From assembly GCF_029338515.1 (NCBI RefSeq), contig NZ_CP119988.1:4278001-4342000 (forward strand): a stretch of DNA of 64,000 nucleotides, written 5' to 3'. Every line of letters starts with the position of its first letter. The first letter of the stretch is position 1. Positions 9,084-59,985 of the stretch are shown in pieces. The notes under the pieces were generated by a model. It did not search any database. It saw only the letters and a program-made list of their open reading frames with translations, and had not been told where the DNA came from. A program made the position numbers and the translations under genes. The DNA comes from Haloglomus litoreum (GTDB lineage: Archaea > Halobacteriota > Halobacteria > Halobacteriales > Haloarculaceae).

Positions 9084-9875
9084 ATGGTCGTCCCCGTCCC
9101 CGTTCGAGAGGCGATGGTCCACGACATCGTGAGCGTCTCGCCGGGCACGCCGATGTCCGAGGCCATCGAGCAGCTCCGGAGCCACGGCATCGGGTCGGTC
9201 GTCGTCGAGGACGACGGCGCGGTGGTCGGCATCCTCACCGATTCGGACCTCGTCGATCTCCTGGCCTCGGGCGCGGACGTCGCCGAACACTCGGTCGCCG
9301 ACTGCATGACCGCGCCGGTCCGGACCGTCGACGACGATACGTCCATCGTCGAGGTCGCCGCGGAACTCCGGGACGCCGGTATCGACCAGCTCCCCGTACT
9401 CGAGCGCGACCGGCTGGTCGGCCTCGTGTCCGTGACCGAACTGTCGGCCTACCTGCCACAGTGTGTCCTCCATCGGGTCGAGCCACACCCGGATGCCGAC
9501 CGCGACGACTGGCACTACGAGTACCAGGACGAGGGCCCGGAGGGACTCACCGTGGGCGACCGGGCCCGGTTCTCGAAGGTGGTCGACGACGACGACGTGG
9601 CGGCGTTCGCGCGGATCAGCGGCGACGAGAACCCCGTCCACCTCGACGCGGCGTTCGCCGAGCAGACGCGGTTCGGTCGCCGCATCGTCCACGGGATGCT
9701 CGCCGCGAGCCTGTTCAGCGCGGCGCTCGCGTGCCTCCCCGGACTCGTCATCTACCTCTCGCAGGACCTGCGGTTCCTCGCCCCCGTCGACATCGGCTGG
9801 CTCCTCTACCTCGGATACAGCCTCGCACGGGACGCGGGCGACATCGCGGACTGGCTGCGACGGGTCCTGGGGTGA
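9084..9875 (+). CDS. CBS-pair/MaoC-like fusion protein with replaced C-terminus
   Basis: 263 residues. Two CBS domains (about 1-125; MVHDIVSVSPGTPMSEAI and DCMTAPVRTVDDDT) typically bind adenine nucleotides. They are followed by a MaoC/hotdog hydratase-like domain (from about 150) with the conserved FARISGDENPVHLDAAFA and GRRIVHGML segments that hold the catalytic Asp and His. The protein is closely similar to the one at 59095 up to APVDIG, then switches to 25 unrelated residues (WLLYLGYSLARDAGDIADWL onward) instead of the last about 60 residues of the hotdog. The fold's last strands are therefore missing, and hydratase activity is questionable. It probably arose by recombination with the end of another gene. 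Confidence 0.85.
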   Translation: MVVPVPVREAMVHDIVSVSPGTPMSEAIEQLRSHGIGSVVVEDDGAVVGILTDSDLVDLLASGADVAEHSVADCMTAPVRTVDDDTSIVEVAAELRDAGIDQLPVLERDRLVGLVSVTELSAYLPQCVLHRVEPHPDADRDDWHYEYQDEGPEGLTVGDRARFSKVVDDDDVAAFARISGDENPVHLDAAFAEQTRFGRRIVHGMLAASLFSAALACLPGLVIYLSQDLRFLAPVDIGWLLYLGYSLARDAGDIADWLRRVLG

Positions 9876-51976: not shown

Positions 51977-54900
51977 ATGACAGCGCCGTCGGCCGGTCGG
52001 CTCGTTGCGGTCAGCGTCGTCTCGCTCCTCCTCGTGCTGGGCGCGGGGACCACCGGAATCGTGCTGTCCGGGGCGGACCCGGGCGGCGGGGGCGACGCCG
52101 GGGCGTCGGCGGACCGGGCGAGCGCGCAGCCGGGCGGCGTCATCTCGGGGACGGTGAACCTGAGCGACGCCCGGACGACGGTCCTCGGGAGCGGCCCCGG
52201 GGACCAGCTCGGTGGGGGTGACCAGAACGCCCGGCCCATCGCGGCCGCCGGCGACGTGAACGGCGACGGCGCCGAGGACCTGCTCGTCGCGGCACCGATG
52301 AACGACACGAACGGGAACGAGTCGGGAGCGGTGTACCTGTTCTACGGCCCGGTCGACGACGGGAGCCTGAACGCCACGACCGCCGACGTCACGCTGTACG
52401 GGGACGACGCGGGTGACCGCGCGGGGTTCTCGGTGGCCGGCGGCGACGTGAACGGCGACGGACTCAGCGACATCGTCGTGGGCGCGCCACGCGCCGAGCG
52501 CCCGCGCGACCCGCCGGAGGGCGGCGGCGCCGTGTTCGTGGTGTTCGGCAGGGACGACGGGGGGCGGAAGAGCGGGCTCCCCGAGCGTGCCAACCTCAGC
52601 GAGGTCGGAACCGCGGTGTACGGCGCGGGGAGCGGCGACCGGGCGGGCTGGTCGGTCGCCGTGCCGGGGAACGTCACCGGCGACCCGGCGTCGGATGTGC
52701 TCGTCGGCGCGCCGGGCAACGACAGCGGCGGGCTGGCGGCCGGCGCCGCCTACCTGTTCACCGACGAGACGCTCGGCCTCGACGCCGAGAACCGGACGCT
52801 TGCGGCGGCGAACGCCACCTACGTCGGTGAGGGCGTCCTCGACCGCGCGGGCTGGTCGGTCGCGGGCGCCGGTGACTTCGACGGCGACGGGCGGCGCGAC
52901 CTGGTGATCGGCGCGCGGAACAACGATACGACCGTCCCGCTGGCCGGCGCCGCCTACGTGGTCACCGAGAACCGGACGAACCGCTCCTCGCTCGGCGACG
53001 CGCGGCTGAAGCTCGCGGGGACCGATTTCGCGAGCGGCGCCGGCTGGTCGGTCGCGGGCGCCGGTGACTTCGACGACGACGGCCACGACGACGTGGTCGT
53101 CGGGGTGCCGTTCGACGACGGCGCCGGACGGAACGCCGGGGCCGCGGCCCTCGTCTACGGCGACCCGGAGCGCAACGGGACCCTCCCGCTCTCGGCGGCC
53201 AACCTGACGTTCCGTGGCGAGGCGCCGCGCGACCGCGCCGGCTACGCCGTCTCCTCGGCGGGATCGGGCGACATCACCTGCGACGGTGTCGACGACCTGC
53301 TGGTCGGCGCACCGGGCAACGACAGCCGTGGCCGCGACGCGGGCGCGGCGTACCTGCTGTACGGCAACGCGACGGCGCCCGACCGGGGGACCCGGAACCT
53401 CTCGGCCGCCGACGCCCGGCTGGTCGGCGCGGCGGCGGGTGACCGGGCCGGCGCCGCCGTCGCCGCCGCCAACGACACGAACGGCGACCGCATCGAGGAC
53501 GTGCTCGTCGGCGCGCCGGGTGTCGACCGGAACGGGCGGGACAGCGGCGCGGCGGCGGTCGTGGCCGGCGAGTGCCCGCCGGACCGCGTCCCCACCCCGA
53601 CGCCGACGCCGGAGCCCACCCCGACGCCGGAACCCACCCCGACCCCGACCGCGACGCCGACGCCGACGGAGACCCCGACCGCGACGCCGAAACCGTTCAC
53701 CCCGCAGTTCCGGTTCGACTGCACGGCCGTGACCGTCGTGGCGCGCTCGTACGACACCGTCCGGCTGACGTTCGCCGACGGCGCCCAGGAAACCTTCCGC
53801 GGCCGGTTCCGCGGCGACAACGAGTTCGGCGGCACCGGCGACAACGCGGGCAAGGTCGTCCGCGCCGCCGAGGTCCGGCGCGGCGACGACGCCGCCCGCC
53901 GCGAGAACCCGAGCCTGGAGCGGTGTCTGGCGACGCCGACACCCACCGCGACGCCGACGCCGACACCCACCGCGACGCCGACGCCGACACCCACCGCGAC
54001 ACCCACCGCGACACCCACACCGACACCCACCGCGACACCCACACCGACACCCACCGCGACACCCACCGCGACACCCACACCGACTCCAACGCCGGAGCTC
54101 GCCCCGGTCGATGTCGCCGTCAGGTGTCGGTCCCGAGGGGCGGCGTTGACGGCGAGGAACCCGAACGACGTCCCCGTGCAGGTCGACGTGAGCGGTCCCG
54201 GCGATTTCGAGCGCCGCGTGACCGTCGAGGCCGGCGACGAACGGACGTTCGGACCGCTCCGGGACGGCGAGTACACCGTCGTCACGCTCTCGGCGTTCGA
54301 CGAGAACGTCTTCCGCGTCGGCGAGGAGTCCGTCGAGGTCGACTGTGCGACGCCGACGCCGACAGCGACACCCACGCCCACACCAACGCCGACGCCGACA
54401 GCGACACCCACGCCCACACCAACGCCGACGCCGACAGCGACACCCACGCCCACACCAACGCCGACGCCGACAGCGACACCCACACCGACGCTCGACTCGG
54501 TTCGCGTCTCGGTCGAGTGCACGACGACAGGGGGCGTGCTGACCGCGAGGAACCCCAACGGCGTCCCCGTACAGGTCGATGTCAGTGGCCCCAGTGACTT
54601 CGAGCGCCGCCTGACCGTGCCCGCGGACGACGAGACCACGTTCACCGGATTGCGGAACGGCGAGTACACCGTCGTCACGCTCTCGGCGTTCGACGAGAAC
54701 GTCTTCCGGATCGGCGAGGAATCCGTCGAGATCGACTGCGCGACGCCCACGCCGACACCGACCGCGACACCAACAGCCACGGCTACGCCCACCGCGTCAC
54801 CGACGCCGACGCCAACAGCAACGCCCACACCGACACCAACACCGACTGCGACCCCAACGCCCACGCCGACCGCCACACCAACGCCGACGTTGGAGCCGGT

Positions 54901-56086
54901 CGAGCTCTCCGTCGACTGCACGGCGGAGGGTGGAGCGCTGACTGCCACCAACCCGAACGGCGTCCCGGTCCAGGTCGACGTGAGCGGGCCCGGTGACTTC
55001 GAGCGCCGCCTGACCGTCCCCGCGAACGACGAAACGACGTTCACGGGACTCCGGAACGGCGAGTACACCGTCGTCACACTCTCGGCATTCGAGGAGAACG
55101 TCTTCCGCGTCGGCGAGGAGTCCGTCGACGTCGACTGCGCGACGCCGACGCCGACCGCGACAGCAACGCCGACGCCAACTCCCACACCGACGCCGACCGC
55201 GACAGCAACGCCGACGCCAACTCCCACACCGACGCCGACCGCGACAGCAACGCCGACGCCAACTCCCACACCGACGCCGACCGCGACAGCAACACCCACA
55301 CCCACGCCGACCCTCGACCCGGTCGACATCTCGGCCGAGTGCGCGGCGACCGGGGGCGCGCTGACCGCGCGGAACCCGAACGGCGTCCCGGTACAGGTCG
55401 ACGTGAGCGGCCCCGATGACCTCGAGCGCCGCGTGACCGTCCCCGCGAACGACGGGACCACCTTCACCGGACTGGGGAACGGCGAGTACACCGTCGTCAC
55501 GCTCTCGGCGTTCGACGAGAACGTCTTCCGCGTCGGCGAGGAGTCCGTCGAGGTCGACTGTGCGACACCCACACCGACGCCCACCGCGTCACCAACAGCC
55601 ACGGCCACACCGACGCCGGAGCCCGTCGCGACGCCGACACCCACCCTGACCCCGGCACCGGTCCCCGGACCGAACGCCGTCGGGTTCGTGGCGTTCTGCT
55701 TCCCGTCGGACCAGGTGCAGTCCTCGACGGTCGTCCTGACGGACGTGACGTTCGACGGGGGCGACGTGGAGCGACTGGAGTACGAGGTCGCGGGGCCGGA
55801 GCCGACGAACGTCACGCACAAGGCCGGCACGGGCATCTACGAGCAGGCGGGCAACGGCACCGGCACCGTCGTCCAGGGCGTCGGGACACTGGTCGGTCAG
55901 ACGGGTCGAGACCGGTTCGGCCGGACACCGAACGCCCCCTGTGCGCCGGGACAGGGGATGCTGAAGTTCGAGGACGGAGCGGTCTTCACCGGTTCGAGCG
56001 GCCGGTTCCCGGGGAACGGCCCCGGCGACGATGACGTCGTGGTCAGGTTCCCCACGGGAGTGCCGCTACCGCCCGAGAGGCCCTGA
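51977..56086 (+). CDS. Large secreted protein: FG-GAP propeller, repeated modules and Thr-Pro linkers
   Basis: 1369 residues. After a signal or anchor helix ([21 protein letters not shown]) come seven FG-GAP/integrin-type repeats at about 60-530, each with a DxNGDG- or DFDGDG-like calcium loop followed by DLLVGAP-like text; seven repeats predict a beta-propeller. A unique domain (576-650) follows, then four near-identical modules of about 80 residues (starting about 707, 840, 972 and 1112) with two Cys and the text [14 protein letters not shown]...[25 protein letters not shown] linkers separate them. A last domain of about 140 residues ends the protein, without a C-terminal membrane helix or PGF-type sorting tail. 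Probably cell-surface or exported, adhesive or ligand-binding. Confidence 0.85.
53935..54095. repeat. In-frame Thr-Pro minisatellite (linker 2)
   Basis: Near-perfect 18-bp and 24-bp direct repeats built from CGACACCCACCGCGACGC-like units, encoding TPTATPTP-type linker sequence. Confidence 0.85.
54345..54490. repeat. In-frame Thr-Pro minisatellite (linker 3)
   Basis: Three to four copies of a 36-bp unit (core ACGCCGACGCCGACAGCGAC), identical between copies, encoding [12 protein letters not shown]. Confidence 0.85.
55140..55310. repeat. In-frame Thr-Pro minisatellite (linker 5)
   Basis: Tandem copies of a 42-bp unit containing ACGCCAACTCCCACACCGAC, essentially identical, encoding [12 protein letters not shown]-type linker. 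Confidence 0.85.
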
Positions 56087-56276
56087 ACGGGGCGGCGACG
56101 CCCAGGTCGTCCCCGACGCCGGGCGAGCCGGGCGACAGTTCGGGGGACCCGGGTCCCCTCGATGGACCCCGGGAATGAGTGGCCCCAACCGGCAGCACTC
56201 CGCGGTGGTCGCGCACGGAGCGCGGCGGGGAGCCGGAACGGTAACGCCGAATATGTCGCCCGACGAGAGAGGCCAT

Positions 56277-56573
56277 ATGAGCGAGTCGACGCCGGGTGAC
56301 CACGAGAGCTATCGCACGAACCTCGCCGAGGAACAGACCCGACTGGCCCGGGAGCGGACCATCCTCTCGCACATCCGGACGGGATTCGCCTCGTTCCTCT
56401 TCGGCGTCGCCATCTTCGGCCTGTTCGGAGACCTCCCGTCGAATCTCGCGGGCGGATTCTTCGTCCTCGTCGGCCTCGTCTTCCTGGTGACCGGATGGGT
56501 CTCCTACGTCAGGAGCAACCGCCGGACGCGCGAGCTGATCGAGGAGTTCGAGCGGCCGTTCCGGCGCTGGTAG
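56277..56573 (+). CDS. DUF202-family small membrane protein
   Basis: 98 residues. EEQTRLARERTILSHIRTGFASFLFG is the DUF202 signature (LAxERTxLAxxRT), followed by two membrane helices (FASFLFGVAIFGLFG and LAGGFFVLVGLVFLVTGWVSYV). Role unknown; it resembles the membrane subunit-like parts of VTC-type proteins. An upstream in-frame ATG at 56253 lies within the CGAATATG promoter box that sits about 25 bp before ATG 56277, so 56277 is preferred. The VIT1 gene reads towards it from the other strand. Confidence 0.85.
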   Translation: MSESTPGDHESYRTNLAEEQTRLARERTILSHIRTGFASFLFGVAIFGLFGDLPSNLAGGFFVLVGLVFLVTGWVSYVRSNRRTRELIEEFERPFRRW

Positions 56574-56578
56574 TCCGC

Positions 56579-57712
56579 TCATCCCACGAGGGTCACGCCG
56601 ATGAGGCTCCCGACACCGTAGGTGAGGAGGGCGGCGACGAGCCCGATACCGACCTGCCGGGCACCCGAGTAGAGGGCGCTCCGGCCAGTCAGGACAGTGA
56701 TACCCGCGCCGACGACGAACAGCCCGAGGGCACTCAGGAGCAGGCTCGTCCCGACGGCGACGAGCCCCGACAGGGCGAAGAAGGGGAGGACCGGCACGAT
56801 GGCCCCGAGTGCGAACAGCAGGAACGAGGTGCCGGCCGCCTCCCACGCCGACCCACCCAGTTCCTCTGGGTCGATACCCAGCTCCTCGCGGGCCAGCGTG
56901 TCCAGTGCGGTCGCATCGTCGGCCACGAGCCGCTCGGCGAGGGTGGCGGCCTGCTCGGGCGGGAGCCCCTTCGCCTCGTAGATGAGCGCCAGTTCCCGCC
57001 GCTCCTCCTCGGGGACCTCGGCGAGTTCGGCCGCCTCGATACCGAGCTGCCGCTGGTACAGTTCACGCGAGCTCTGGACGGAGAGCCACTCGCCCATCGC
57101 CATCGACCCCGCGCCCGCCAGCAGGCCCGCGAGGCCCGTGACGAGGATGACCGTCGCGTCGAGTGCGGCACCGGCGACCCCCATCACGAGGCTCAGGTTC
57201 GAGACGAGGCCGTCGTTCGCACCGAGGACGGCCGCCCGGAGGGCGTTCCCACTCGCGGCCCGGTGCCGACCCTCCAGGCGGGCGAGCACGCTCCCCTCCA
57301 CACCCCGTCCGGGAGCGGTCTCGATGGCCGCGAGCAGGCGGTCGTGCGAGCGTTCGTCGGCGACCATCCCGGTCCCCTCGACCTCGGGCTGGGCGGTGTA
57401 GCCGTCGCCACCCGTCGCCTCGCCGGCCCGCATCGTGGCGACGACGAGCGTGGCCCCGAAGCGGCGGGCGAGCCACGCGAGGACCCGTGCCCGCCACGAG
57501 GGGGCCGCCTCGGTGACGGTCGCGCCAGCTTCGCGGAGCCGCTCGGCCCAGAACGCCGCGTGCTCGCGCTCGGTCGCGGCCAGCCGGCGGTAGACGTCCG
57601 CCAGCTGTGGCTGTGACTCCGCGTCCGCCATCGCCTCGTACACCGTGGCGCTGTCGACCTCGTCCTGGCGGTTGCGCCGATAGCGCGCGATGTCGTCGTG
57701 TTCGCCCGGCAT
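56579..57712 (-). CDS. Ferritin-like domain fused to VIT1/CCC1-type metal transporter
   Basis: 377 residues. The first about 150 residues are a rubrerythrin/ferritin-like four-helix domain with Glu and His ligand candidates (VDSATVYEAMADAE, ATEREHAAFWAERL, DERSHDRLL). The rest is a VIT1/CCC1-like transporter with about five helices (AAVLGANDGLVSNLSLVMGVAGA, SMAMGEWLSVQSSRELYQRQLG, FLLFALGAIVPVLPFFALSG). Such fusions move iron or manganese across a membrane, with the soluble domain sensing or delivering metal. The ATG is well defined. The gene is convergent with the DUF202 gene and divergent from the DUF5788-like gene. Confidence 0.9.
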   Translation of the reverse strand: MPGEHDDIARYRRNRQDEVDSATVYEAMADAESQPQLADVYRRLAATEREHAAFWAERLREAGATVTEAAPSWRARVLAWLARRFGATLVVATMRAGEATGGDGYTAQPEVEGTGMVADERSHDRLLAAIETAPGRGVEGSVLARLEGRHRAASGNALRAAVLGANDGLVSNLSLVMGVAGAALDATVILVTGLAGLLAGAGSMAMGEWLSVQSSRELYQRQLGIEAAELAEVPEEERRELALIYEAKGLPPEQAATLAERLVADDATALDTLAREELGIDPEELGGSAWEAAGTSFLLFALGAIVPVLPFFALSGLVAVGTSLLLSALGLFVVGAGITVLTGRSALYSGARQVGIGLVAALLTYGVGSLIGVTLVG

Positions 57713-57811
57713 CGTCGACCGGCTGAGGTTCGACACGAGGGACGATAACGGTACGTGTCCGCCCGCCCCCGCGGCACAACGGCTTCCCGCACGCGGCCCG
57801 ACGTAGCACGT

Positions 57812-58240
57812 ATGAGCGGGGACGAGACACCCCTCGACGACGGCCACCGCGAGGACCTGCTGACTCGGGTCGAGCGCAAGGGCGCGGTCGTCGGGAGCCG
57901 GGTGCCGGAGACGGTCACCATCGGGGACACCGAGGTAGCCCTGCGCGCGTTCGTCCGCGAGACCACGGCCCGGGACACGGTTCCGCCGGAGCAACGCGAC
58001 CACGTCCGCGCCGTCCTAGAGACGCTCCGCGGCGAACGAGCGGTGCGCAAGGACCGGCTCGAACACGACCGGCTCACGGTCGCCGAGGCGACGGCGCTGG
58101 CCGACTCCATCGTCGGCATCGACCGGGCCATCGCGGCGCTCACCGACCTCCGACCGGCCTCGCCCGGGACCGAACGACGCGCCGAACGACTGGCCGAGGA
58201 CCGGTCCTGGGTGGCATTCCTCCGGCAGCTCCGGGAGTGA
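57812..58240 (+). CDS. Haloarchaeal hypothetical protein (DUF5788-like)
   Basis: 142 residues, charged and largely helical, no membrane segment. VERKGAVVGSRVPETVTIGDTEVALRAFVRET opens a mixed alpha/beta region; RDHVRAVLETLRGERAVRKDRLEHDRLTVAEATALADSIVGIDRAIAAL is a long helical hairpin. It resembles the haloarchaeal DUF5788 family from memory. Function unknown. ATG 57812 is preferred over an upstream in-frame start whose extra residues are Arg/Pro-rich and lack haloarchaeal composition. Confidence 0.7.
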   Translation: MSGDETPLDDGHREDLLTRVERKGAVVGSRVPETVTIGDTEVALRAFVRETTARDTVPPEQRDHVRAVLETLRGERAVRKDRLEHDRLTVAEATALADSIVGIDRAIAALTDLRPASPGTERRAERLAEDRSWVAFLRQLRE

Positions 58241-58292: not shown

Positions 58293-58997
58293 ATGCGGCC
58301 CACCACGCCGACGCGGCAGACCCTCCACCGGCTCGAGGACCGGATCGAGTTCGCCGAGCGGGGCCGCGACGTACTGGAGCGCAAGCTGGAGGCCCTCGTC
58401 TTCGAGTTCGGGGATGTCCTCGACCAGTACGAGTCCACCCGCAGCGACCTCGACAAGGCCTACGCGACGGCCCAGTCCGAACTCGACCACGTCCGCGCCG
58501 TGGAGGGCGATATCGAGCTCAGGGGAATCGCCCGGGCTCGCAAGCACCACCCCACCATGACCACGGCATCGAAGAACCTGATGGGTGTCAGGGTGCCGCT
58601 GTTCGAGCCCCGCGACATCACGGTCGACATCACCGAACACGGGTACGGGCTCGTGGGCACCAGCCCCGTCGTCGACGAGGTCGTCGACGCCTACGAGGCG
58701 CTGCTTGAGCAGGTCGTCGTCGCGGCCGAGGTCGCGACGGCGCTCCGGATACTCCTCGACGAGATCGGAACCACCAGACACCGGGTCAACGCCCTCGAGA
58801 AGGCGGTACTGCCGGACCTCCGTGCGGAAGCGTCGTACATCCGTCGCCACCTCGCGGAGCGCGAACGCGACGAGCGGGTCCGGCAGAAGTGGTTCAAGAG
58901 CGGTGGCGGGGGAACACAGCGACGACGCGGGCGGGGACGCCTGCAGCGACGGCGGGCGGGCGGGGACGAGCAGCCGGACGGACGGCGCGGCGACTAG
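58293..58997 (+). CDS. Solo V-type (A-type) ATP synthase subunit D paralogue
   Basis: 234 residues. The helical-hairpin fold of AtpD is recognisable: PTRQTLHRLEDRIEFAERGRDVLERKLEALVFEFGDVLDQ (N-terminal coiled coil), ASKNLMGVRVPLFEP (central), GYGLVGTSPVVDEVVDAYEALLEQVVVAAEVATALRILLDEI and RVNALEKAVLPDLR (C-terminal coil). Canonical haloarchaeal AtpD aligns throughout, but this copy lacks the usual atp operon neighbours and ends in an Arg/Gly-rich tail. It may be a specialised rotor-shaft variant, or not a rotor subunit at all. Confidence 0.85.
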   Translation: MRPTTPTRQTLHRLEDRIEFAERGRDVLERKLEALVFEFGDVLDQYESTRSDLDKAYATAQSELDHVRAVEGDIELRGIARARKHHPTMTTASKNLMGVRVPLFEPRDITVDITEHGYGLVGTSPVVDEVVDAYEALLEQVVVAAEVATALRILLDEIGTTRHRVNALEKAVLPDLRAEASYIRRHLAERERDERVRQKWFKSGGGGTQRRRGRGRLQRRRAGGDEQPDGRRGD

Positions 58998-59094: not shown

Positions 59095-59985
59095 ATGGTC
59101 GTTCCAGTCCCCGTTCGAGAGGTGATGGTCCACGACGTCGTGACGGTCCCGCCGGAGGCACCGGTGAGCGAGGCCATCGAGCAGTTCCGAACCCGTAACA
59201 TCGGCTCGGTCGTCGTCGAGTCCGAGGGTGCGGTGGTCGGCATCCTCACCGACTCGGACCTCGTCGACCTCCTGGCCTCGGGCGGGTCCGTCGCCGAGCA
59301 TTCGGTGGCCGACTGCATGACGGCGCCGGTGCGGACCGTCGACATCGAGGCCCCCATCGTCGAGGTGTCCGCGACGCTCCGGGACGCCGGCATCGACCAG
59401 CTCCCGGTGCTGGAGGGTGAGCGGCTAGCCGGCCTCGTCTCCGTGGCCGAGCTGTCGGCCTACCTCCCGCAGTGCGTCCTCCGGCAGGTCGAGGCACACC
59501 CCGACGCCGACCGCGAGGACTGGCACTACGAGTACCAGGACGAGGGAGCGGAAGGCCTCACCGTCGGCGACCGGGTCCGGTTCTCGAAGGTCGTGGACGA
59601 GGCCGATATCGAGGCGTTCGCCCGCATCAGCGGCGACGAGAACCCCGTCCATCTCGACGCGTCGTTCGCCGAGGGGACGCGGTTCGGCCGCCGCATCGTC
59701 CACGGGATGCTCGCCGCGAGCCTCTTCAGCGCGGCGCTCGCGCGCCTCCCGGGGCTCGTCATCTACCTCTCGCAGGACGTCCGATTCCTCGCCCCCGTCG
59801 ACATTGGCGACCGGGTCCGGGTCGAGTGCGAGGTCATCCAGGACCTCGGGCACGGCCGGTACCGGCTCTCGACGACGGGCGAGGACGAGTCCGGGGAGCA
59901 GGTACTCGTCGGGGAGGCAGTCGTCCTCGTGGACCCGCTCCCGACCGACGAGGCGGCCCCGGCGGAGGCGTCGGCCGAGACCTGA
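59095..59985 (+). CDS. CBS-pair/MaoC-like fusion protein (intact paralogue)
   Basis: 296 residues with a CBS pair (about 1-125) and a complete MaoC/hotdog hydratase-like domain (about 150-285): FARISGDENPVHLDASFAEGTRFGRRIVHGML carries the catalytic Asp/His region, and DIGDRVRVECEVIQDLGHGRYRLSTTG and GEAVVLVDPL complete the fold. CBS domains likely sense AMP/ATP and tune hydration of an enoyl-CoA-type substrate. Around 83 percent of residues look shared with the gene at 9084 up to APVDIG, after which that copy diverges. ATG 59095 matches the start of the other copy. Confidence 0.88.
   Translation: MVVPVPVREVMVHDVVTVPPEAPVSEAIEQFRTRNIGSVVVESEGAVVGILTDSDLVDLLASGGSVAEHSVADCMTAPVRTVDIEAPIVEVSATLRDAGIDQLPVLEGERLAGLVSVAELSAYLPQCVLRQVEAHPDADREDWHYEYQDEGAEGLTVGDRVRFSKVVDEADIEAFARISGDENPVHLDASFAEGTRFGRRIVHGMLAASLFSAALARLPGLVIYLSQDVRFLAPVDIGDRVRVECEVIQDLGHGRYRLSTTGEDESGEQVLVGEAVVLVDPLPTDEAAPAEASAET

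Follow-up and report, generated by a model that had tools for sequence, protein, structure and literature searches.

AtpD2 of Haloglomus litoreum, a member of a rare clade of subunit D paralogues and a possible alternative shaft for the ATP synthase

Rotary ATPases are regulated by inhibitors, by disassembly and through subunit isoforms, and to our knowledge no swap of the rotor shaft has been described in an archaeon. The closest described relatives of the protein considered here are the D subunits of A/V-type ATPases (Pfam family PF01813), including NtpD of E. hirae and the V1-D subunit of Thermus. Residues 73-80 of the Thermus protein form a short helix seated in a socket of subunit C, and when this helix is swapped or deleted V1-Vo assembly persists and ATP synthesis and proton pumping are abolished (PMC4355294). 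Contacts of E. hirae D with the catalytic ring are made by R165, R166, A169 and L170, and exchange of both arginines weakens ring binding without abolishing it (PMC3772951). For haloarchaea, an atpD unlinked to the other atp genes has been published (PMC3403918), the D gene standing apart in Natrialba magadii and Natronomonas pharaonis, with one D gene mentioned for each species in these sources as against the second copy reported here (PMC3403918, PMC11948995). An atpD outside the atp operon is therefore not odd in itself; a second atpD is.

A second subunit D gene far from the atp cluster

The window analysed here is a stretch of 64,000 nucleotides, positions 4278001-4342000 of C1, the single 4.70-Mb contig of the H. 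litoreum genome (G000). Within it lies an intact forward-strand frame of 234 codons with an ATG start, here called atpD2, and the features of its product and of the adjacent upstream gene are as follows.

57812-58240, forward strand: DUF5788 gene, a divergent extra copy directly upstream of AtpD2 (PF19101, E 5.5e-39)
58293-58997, forward strand: AtpD2, 234 aa, paralogous to subunit D of A-type ATP synthase (PF01813 and fold model)
58314-58505, forward strand: N-terminal long helix, residues 8-71 (predicted; pLDDT of the block 77-97)
58509-58538, forward strand: short helix, residues 73-82 (predicted; 73-80 align with the subunit-C-docking helix of Thermus)
58554-58613, forward strand: beta hairpin, strands 88-96 and 99-107 (predicted)
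58665-58901, forward strand: C-terminal long helix, residues 125-203, with the RVNALE motif at 164-169 (predicted; motif retained)
58899-58994, forward strand: Arg/Gly-rich C-terminal tail, residues 203-234 (by composition)

AtpD2 matches PF01813 (ATP-synt_D) at 163 bits (E 8.1e-48; cut-off 25.7 bits) over residues 11-202, spanning positions 2-195 of the 196 in the profile, so that it belongs to the family over the profile's length; the reverse strand of the frame has no Pfam match. The canonical D gene of the same genome scores higher on this model (199.6 bits) and lies at C1:3512350-3512931 on the reverse strand, adjoining atpC, atpF, atpA and atpB and about 823 kb from AtpD2 on the contig. 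An earlier note on this DNA had taken AtpD2 for a paralogue of subunit D, proposed that the canonical gene be located, and named as the alternative that AtpD2 might be the only atpD of the genome, merely relocated. With a separate canonical gene in place beside the other atp genes this alternative is ruled out, AtpD2 being neither the sole D of its genome nor linked to atp genes, and the identification as a paralogue stands. The protein is also diverged, as the note had it, with 48% identity to the canonical copy, and the Arg/Gly-rich tail is borne out by 10 Arg and 10 Gly, with 4 Asp plus Glu, in the 32 residues past residue 202. The further description of the gene as alone holds with respect to the atp cluster but not to its immediate surroundings, since a DUF5788 gene on the same strand ends 52 bases upstream and the pairing recurs in a second genome, G374. 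The G+C content of AtpD2 (0.70) is that of the window, and its GC3 is 0.89 versus 0.95 in canonical D. Between atpB and the canonical atpD there is a wax-ester-synthase/DGAT gene (L064:11760-13253); such a WS/DGAT-atp cluster has already been published for haloarchaea (PMC11948995).

Homology of AtpD2 to A/V-type subunit D extends over residues 4-203, with the same predicted long helices, short helix and beta hairpin and with R164 and P174 kept; AtpD2 differs in its location outside the atp cluster, its changed short helix, its near-neutral charge and its basic tail. An AlphaFold2 model was built from 26 aligned D proteins with AtpD2 first (11 of the 13 paralogues described below and 15 other D rows), and has a mean pLDDT of 83.8, with a weak tail in which residues 223-234 fall below 50. 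The helical hairpin, short helix and beta hairpin of subunit D are all found in this model, and all 36 of its Foldseek matches in the PDB with E <=0.001 are chains of V- or V/A-ATPase entries (best E 8e-11). The D-subunit fold is predicted to be intact in AtpD2, by a model that is not independent of the family because canonical D rows are part of its alignment. Twenty-one columns, including R164, V165 and P174, are identical across all 26 aligned rows.

Descent and distribution of the paralogues

A diverged second D gene was found in at least 13 of the 552 genomes examined in the order (G000-G551). The genomes were searched in overlapping sets, namely 146 of the window's family (Pfam model), 392 from the order and 125 of a second family (AtpD2 as query), and 170 of a third family (a paralogue as query); some are incomplete, and the count is a lower bound, as up to seven candidates per genome were scored in the order-wide set and diverged second copies may be missed in families covered only there. 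The carriers are H. litoreum, G374, G361, G066, G369, G373, G393, G487, G490, G491, G494, G547 and G550; AtpD2 and the G374 copy are referred to as group A, and the other 11 paralogues as group B. With the Pfam model a second D was not found in three congeners of H. litoreum, each of which gave one D match. Extra matches found at contig ends in G004, G136 and G223 are 81.6-88.6% identical to the canonical D or to each other, and were set aside as draft-assembly duplicates; the two matches of G542, which score equally with a group B query (E 1.2e-36 each), were dropped as canonical-like, and a match in G092, at 21 bits, as being under the cut-off.

The closest relative of AtpD2 is the G374 copy, from another family, at 52-55% identity, and group B proteins are 36-40% identical to AtpD2 (those of G369 and G393 39% each), group A being nearer to canonical D than group B is. 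A maximum-likelihood tree was built from 48 rows, comprising the 2 and 11 paralogues, 31 canonical-type rows (one of them, G578, from outside the order) and an outgroup of 4 rows taken from other families in the phylum. All 13 paralogues form one clade in this tree, with support of 100/99, inside the AtpD of the order; branches are long, with a warning of long-branch joins from the tool, and support for AtpD2 and the G374 copy as sisters is weak (79/34). An independent sign of common descent is that S21A, L83R, Q190R and I195R are common to both group A members and all 11 of group B, the old residue being kept in at least 90% of 30 canonical rows. AtpD2 is thus from a rare paralogue clade, known so far from this archaeal order only. 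The subunit D family is already known; in the literature searched on ATP synthase D paralogues, nothing was found that points to this clade or to its pairing with DUF5788.

Two Haloferax plasmids, pSVX82-2 and pBNX82-2, also carry a D paralogue. These copies belong to group B, being 89-95% identical to those of G369, G373, G393 and G487 and 37-40% identical to AtpD2, and, where AtpD2 follows a DUF5788 gene, they are instead followed by rdfA and an SMC-related gene. Both plasmid records are annotated and name the paralogue plainly "V-type ATP synthase subunit D", which hides the difference. They are two of seven plasmid records with a match, and the one inspected among the other five holds a D inside a whole V-ATPase gene cluster. 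A viral origin was considered and dropped, as no relative turned up when viral contigs were scanned once with 11 aligned paralogues; eight unannotated phage records from Listeria, Enterococcus or human faecal sources have weak matches (23.5-30.6%). Among named genomes, in a search whose reach is limited to close relatives, there was a single distant match, at 29%, in a MAG. Outside the order, five genomes of one genus (G552, G561, G579, G587 and G599) have two convergent D genes with about 0.6-0.7 kb between the matches.

Departures from canonical D, partners and gene neighbours

AtpD2 aligns with the short helix of Thermus D at the same residue numbers, 73-80. A pattern derived in this analysis, D[VIL][AST]VRGAA, fits all 30 canonical rows (G578 left out), 23 of them exactly as DVAVRGAA, and none of the 13 paralogues; AtpD2 reads DIELRGIA, retaining D73, R77, G78 and A80, and the G374 copy QVVIDGLV. 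Some group B proteins were begun at an inner start codon and lack N-terminal residues in this comparison, in those of charge and conservation and in the tree of the paralogues. The fraction of conserved positions kept at 72-82 is 0.60 in AtpD2 versus 0.38 in the four outgroup D rows (three of which are almost the same sequence), so that the short helix of AtpD2 is not exceptional against outgroup D, which departs there even more. Less well kept in AtpD2 than in the outgroup are residues 31-55 (0.42 vs 0.74), 83-115 (0.48 vs 0.74) and 136-160 (0.55 vs 0.72), and these losses could reflect loss of the contact with subunit F. Overall, of the 159 positions with a conservation of 90% or more in canonical D, AtpD2 keeps 84.

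The ring-contact residues R165, R166, A169 and L170 of E. hirae correspond to H163, R164, A167 and L168 of AtpD2, the last three unchanged, under a numbering obtained from the alignment plus an offset deduced from the additional residues with which the crystal chain begins. H163 alone says little, given that exchange of both arginines only weakens ring binding in E. hirae. AtpD2 keeps PTR and RVNALE, and the G374 copy PTR and RVRALE; in group B the latter motif has become RVNYL (10 of 11) or RVNTI (1 of 11), and in these 11 copies the first of the two ring-contact arginines is replaced by a hydrophobic residue. On NF001542, the NCBIfam equivalog model for D (cut-off 261 bits; subfamily cut-off 72, which AtpD2 exceeds), AtpD2 scores 214.1 bits, the G374 copy 215.1 and three group B copies 142-154, all five below the equivalog cut-off; four canonical copies score 365-372 and a D from another family of the phylum 349, which puts the paralogues at a greater distance from working D than this protein of another family. 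The net charge of the 13 paralogues ranges from -7 to +6, that of the 30 canonical rows from -15 to -32 (G578, left out, has -2), and that of the four outgroup rows from +3 to +9. This shift is not confined to the tail, as the part ending at residue 202 has -18 to -8 in canonical D and -7 to +4 in the paralogues; the tail charges of the two sets overlap, two group B tails having -11 and -8.

A single atpF and a single atpC score over the cut-off in each of the 13 carrier genomes, so that a paralogue would need the canonical subunit C as its partner, and a second full ATPase was rejected because no second F or C gene was found over it. Nei-Gojobori dN/dS values for five pairs of group B paralogues are 0.16, 0.20, 0.22, 0.25 and 0.26, those for canonical D pairs 0.03, 0.03, 0.15 and 0.21, and that for an rdfA pair 0.27; as judged from these alignments, group B is under purifying selection, looser than that on canonical D. 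AtpD2 and the G374 copy give about 0.40 versus 0.21 for the canonical pair of the same genomes, and the DUF5788 pair beside them 0.80, values made rough by saturation and strong GC3 bias, and selection on AtpD2 itself is less certain.

In G374 the order of DUF5788 and paralogue is the same as in the window, with 76 bases between them; AtpD2 is therefore not wholly alone, DUF5788 being directly upstream in both members of group A, and the two genes probably share one transcript. A promoter and terminator scan, with models of bacterial promoters, gave nothing. One more DUF5788 copy is present in H. litoreum, at C1:3659600, and two more in G374. In a DUF5788 tree of 28 rows (a truncated G009 row and the locus duplicate of the window copy being left out), the copies beside AtpD2 and the G374 paralogue are sisters (SH-aLRT 91) within a six-row second subfamily (98). 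No atpD occurs within the 12.4-12.5 kb read around the other genes of this subfamily (G001, G003, G046 and G073); response-regulator and DUF7504 KaiC-like genes lie near DUF5788 in three of these genomes (G001, G003 and G073) and, in G004, beside a similar gene. DUF5788 is present in all 20 genomes chosen, and a literature search for it found no paper. Its model (pLDDT 82.5) has no PDB match with E <0.001, and no function is therefore read from its fold.

Within 5 kb either side of the 13 paralogues no gene family is common to all loci except the paralogue itself (with overlapping frames), the most widespread other family being found at five. Directly downstream of the group B paralogue in G369, G373, G393 and G487, and on the two Haloferax plasmids, are rdfA and an archaea-specific SMC-related gene (L103, L104; L091, L092, L093, L130). 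The four genomes are of one genus, and as their rdfA is 88-96% identical to that of the plasmids they are probably Haloferax; in G490 merely a C-terminal piece of the SMC-related gene is near the paralogue. A link to rdfA was set aside as a general mechanism, being limited to these occurrences. Rod shape in Hfx. volcanii depends on RdfA and the SMC-like Sph3, and 24 genomes are reported to contain 42 adjacent rdfA-SMC pairs (PMC10869688); the term ATP synthase is absent from the main text of that paper. Other neighbours of group B include, in G361 and G550, of two genera, a divergent GH15 glucodextranase-like gene (L090 6832-8883 and L126 8198-10414), methyltransferase genes in G490 and G491, and CorA in G494.

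Possible roles of AtpD2, and the genes around it

The explanation that we favour, with a probability of about 0.4, is that AtpD2 serves in trans as an alternative shaft, entering the catalytic ring but coupling poorly to the membrane rotor. AtpD2 would act in trans on the single ATP synthase of the cell, and, as it retains most of the motif for ring contact along with the long helical hairpin, it could enter the A3B3 ring, probably together with the shared subunit F. The changed short helix would seat badly in the socket of subunit C and leave the motor uncoupled or parked, so that AtpD2 would tune or store the catalytic head rather than serve in making ATP; the basic tail might provide a brake or a new contact, perhaps with the co-encoded DUF5788 protein. 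This reading draws on the predicted fold and the largely retained ring motif combined with a departure at the C-docking helix, and on the single A-ATPase, the one thing common to all carriers in which a D-shaped protein could be used; the lack of a universal neighbour speaks for it, being the picture expected of a gene whose product acts on a housekeeping machine. The 21 invariant columns, the retention of R164, A167 and L168, the uncoupling seen on helix swapping in Thermus and the constraint on group B count in the same direction. Counted against it are the 84 of 159 conserved positions, the 214 bits against a cut-off of 261, the outgroup comparison of the short helix, the ring-motif changes of group B, and the fact that the gene was not found in 539 of the 552 genomes, which makes the paralogue dispensable. 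That the carriers should regulate their rotary ATP synthase by exchanging its shaft for a paralogue dedicated to uncoupling or parking, one that would fit the ring and not the membrane rotor, possibly with DUF5788 as partner, is a more specific proposal and an unlikely one. The paralogue clade offers natural shaft variants for separating ring binding from torque coupling.

Nearly as likely as the trans-acting shaft is an exaptation, in which the paralogue has left the ATP synthase and become a basic coiled-coil adaptor, with DUF5788 as partner in the lineage of the window and RdfA and the SMC-like protein as partners in Haloferax; this would be a case of a rotor subunit turned adaptor. The loss of acidity in all 13 paralogues, the loss of ring-motif residues in group B and the scores of all five paralogues tested below the D equivalog cut-off argue for such a departure, and the DUF5788 pairing in both group A members, together with rdfA and the SMC-related gene downstream in four genomes and two plasmids, would supply the partners, of which RdfA and Sph3 are known to be required for rod shape (PMC10869688). 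No partner is common to all 13 loci, however, where GH15, methyltransferase, CorA and other genes are also neighbours, and rdfA-SMC pairs are widespread compared with a paralogue found in at least 13 of 552 genomes, so that the two may lie together by chance; the AtpD2 model, moreover, still predicts both the short helix and the hairpin of subunit D. The note had suggested that AtpD2 could replace the shaft under some condition or serve in another helical-hairpin role. Should AtpD2 be a fully working second D that substitutes for the canonical one under some stress, its predicted intact fold, its PTR and RVNALE motifs (PTR and RVRALE in G374) and the four residues kept in the short helix would be accounted for, but the short helix is changed in all 13 paralogues with one subunit C per genome, exogenous short helices uncouple the Thermus enzyme (PMC4355294), the net charge differs from the canonical one, and the equivalog cut-off missed by AtpD2 is passed easily by the four canonical copies tested and by the D of another family; such a condition-specific replacement seems quite improbable. 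A similarly low probability is given to AtpD2 being a relict or neutral accessory gene, recently acquired or decaying and without present function in the strain. The patchy distribution, which misses the three congeners, and the dN/dS of about 0.40 for AtpD2 and G374 and 0.80 for the adjoining DUF5788 pair would suit this, but not so the intact frame, a base composition like that of the window with GC3 near the canonical value, the 52-55% identity to the G374 copy or the constraint on group B.

Several genes in the window were recorded beside these results. The interval 56031-57740 holds a DUF202 gene and, on the reverse strand, a ferritin-like/VIT1 fusion gene; a close relative of the VIT1 gene is found near the group B paralogue of G066, and one of the DUF202 gene near that of G361. 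A protein of 1369 aa that looks secreted, with long Thr-Pro linkers and repeated segments, is encoded at 51977-56086 on the forward strand. Two CBS-MaoC fusion genes, at 59095-59985 and about 9084-9839, are 80% identical to each other, and since the best matches in the three congeners span the MaoC part only, at 54-55%, the fusions look strain-specific.
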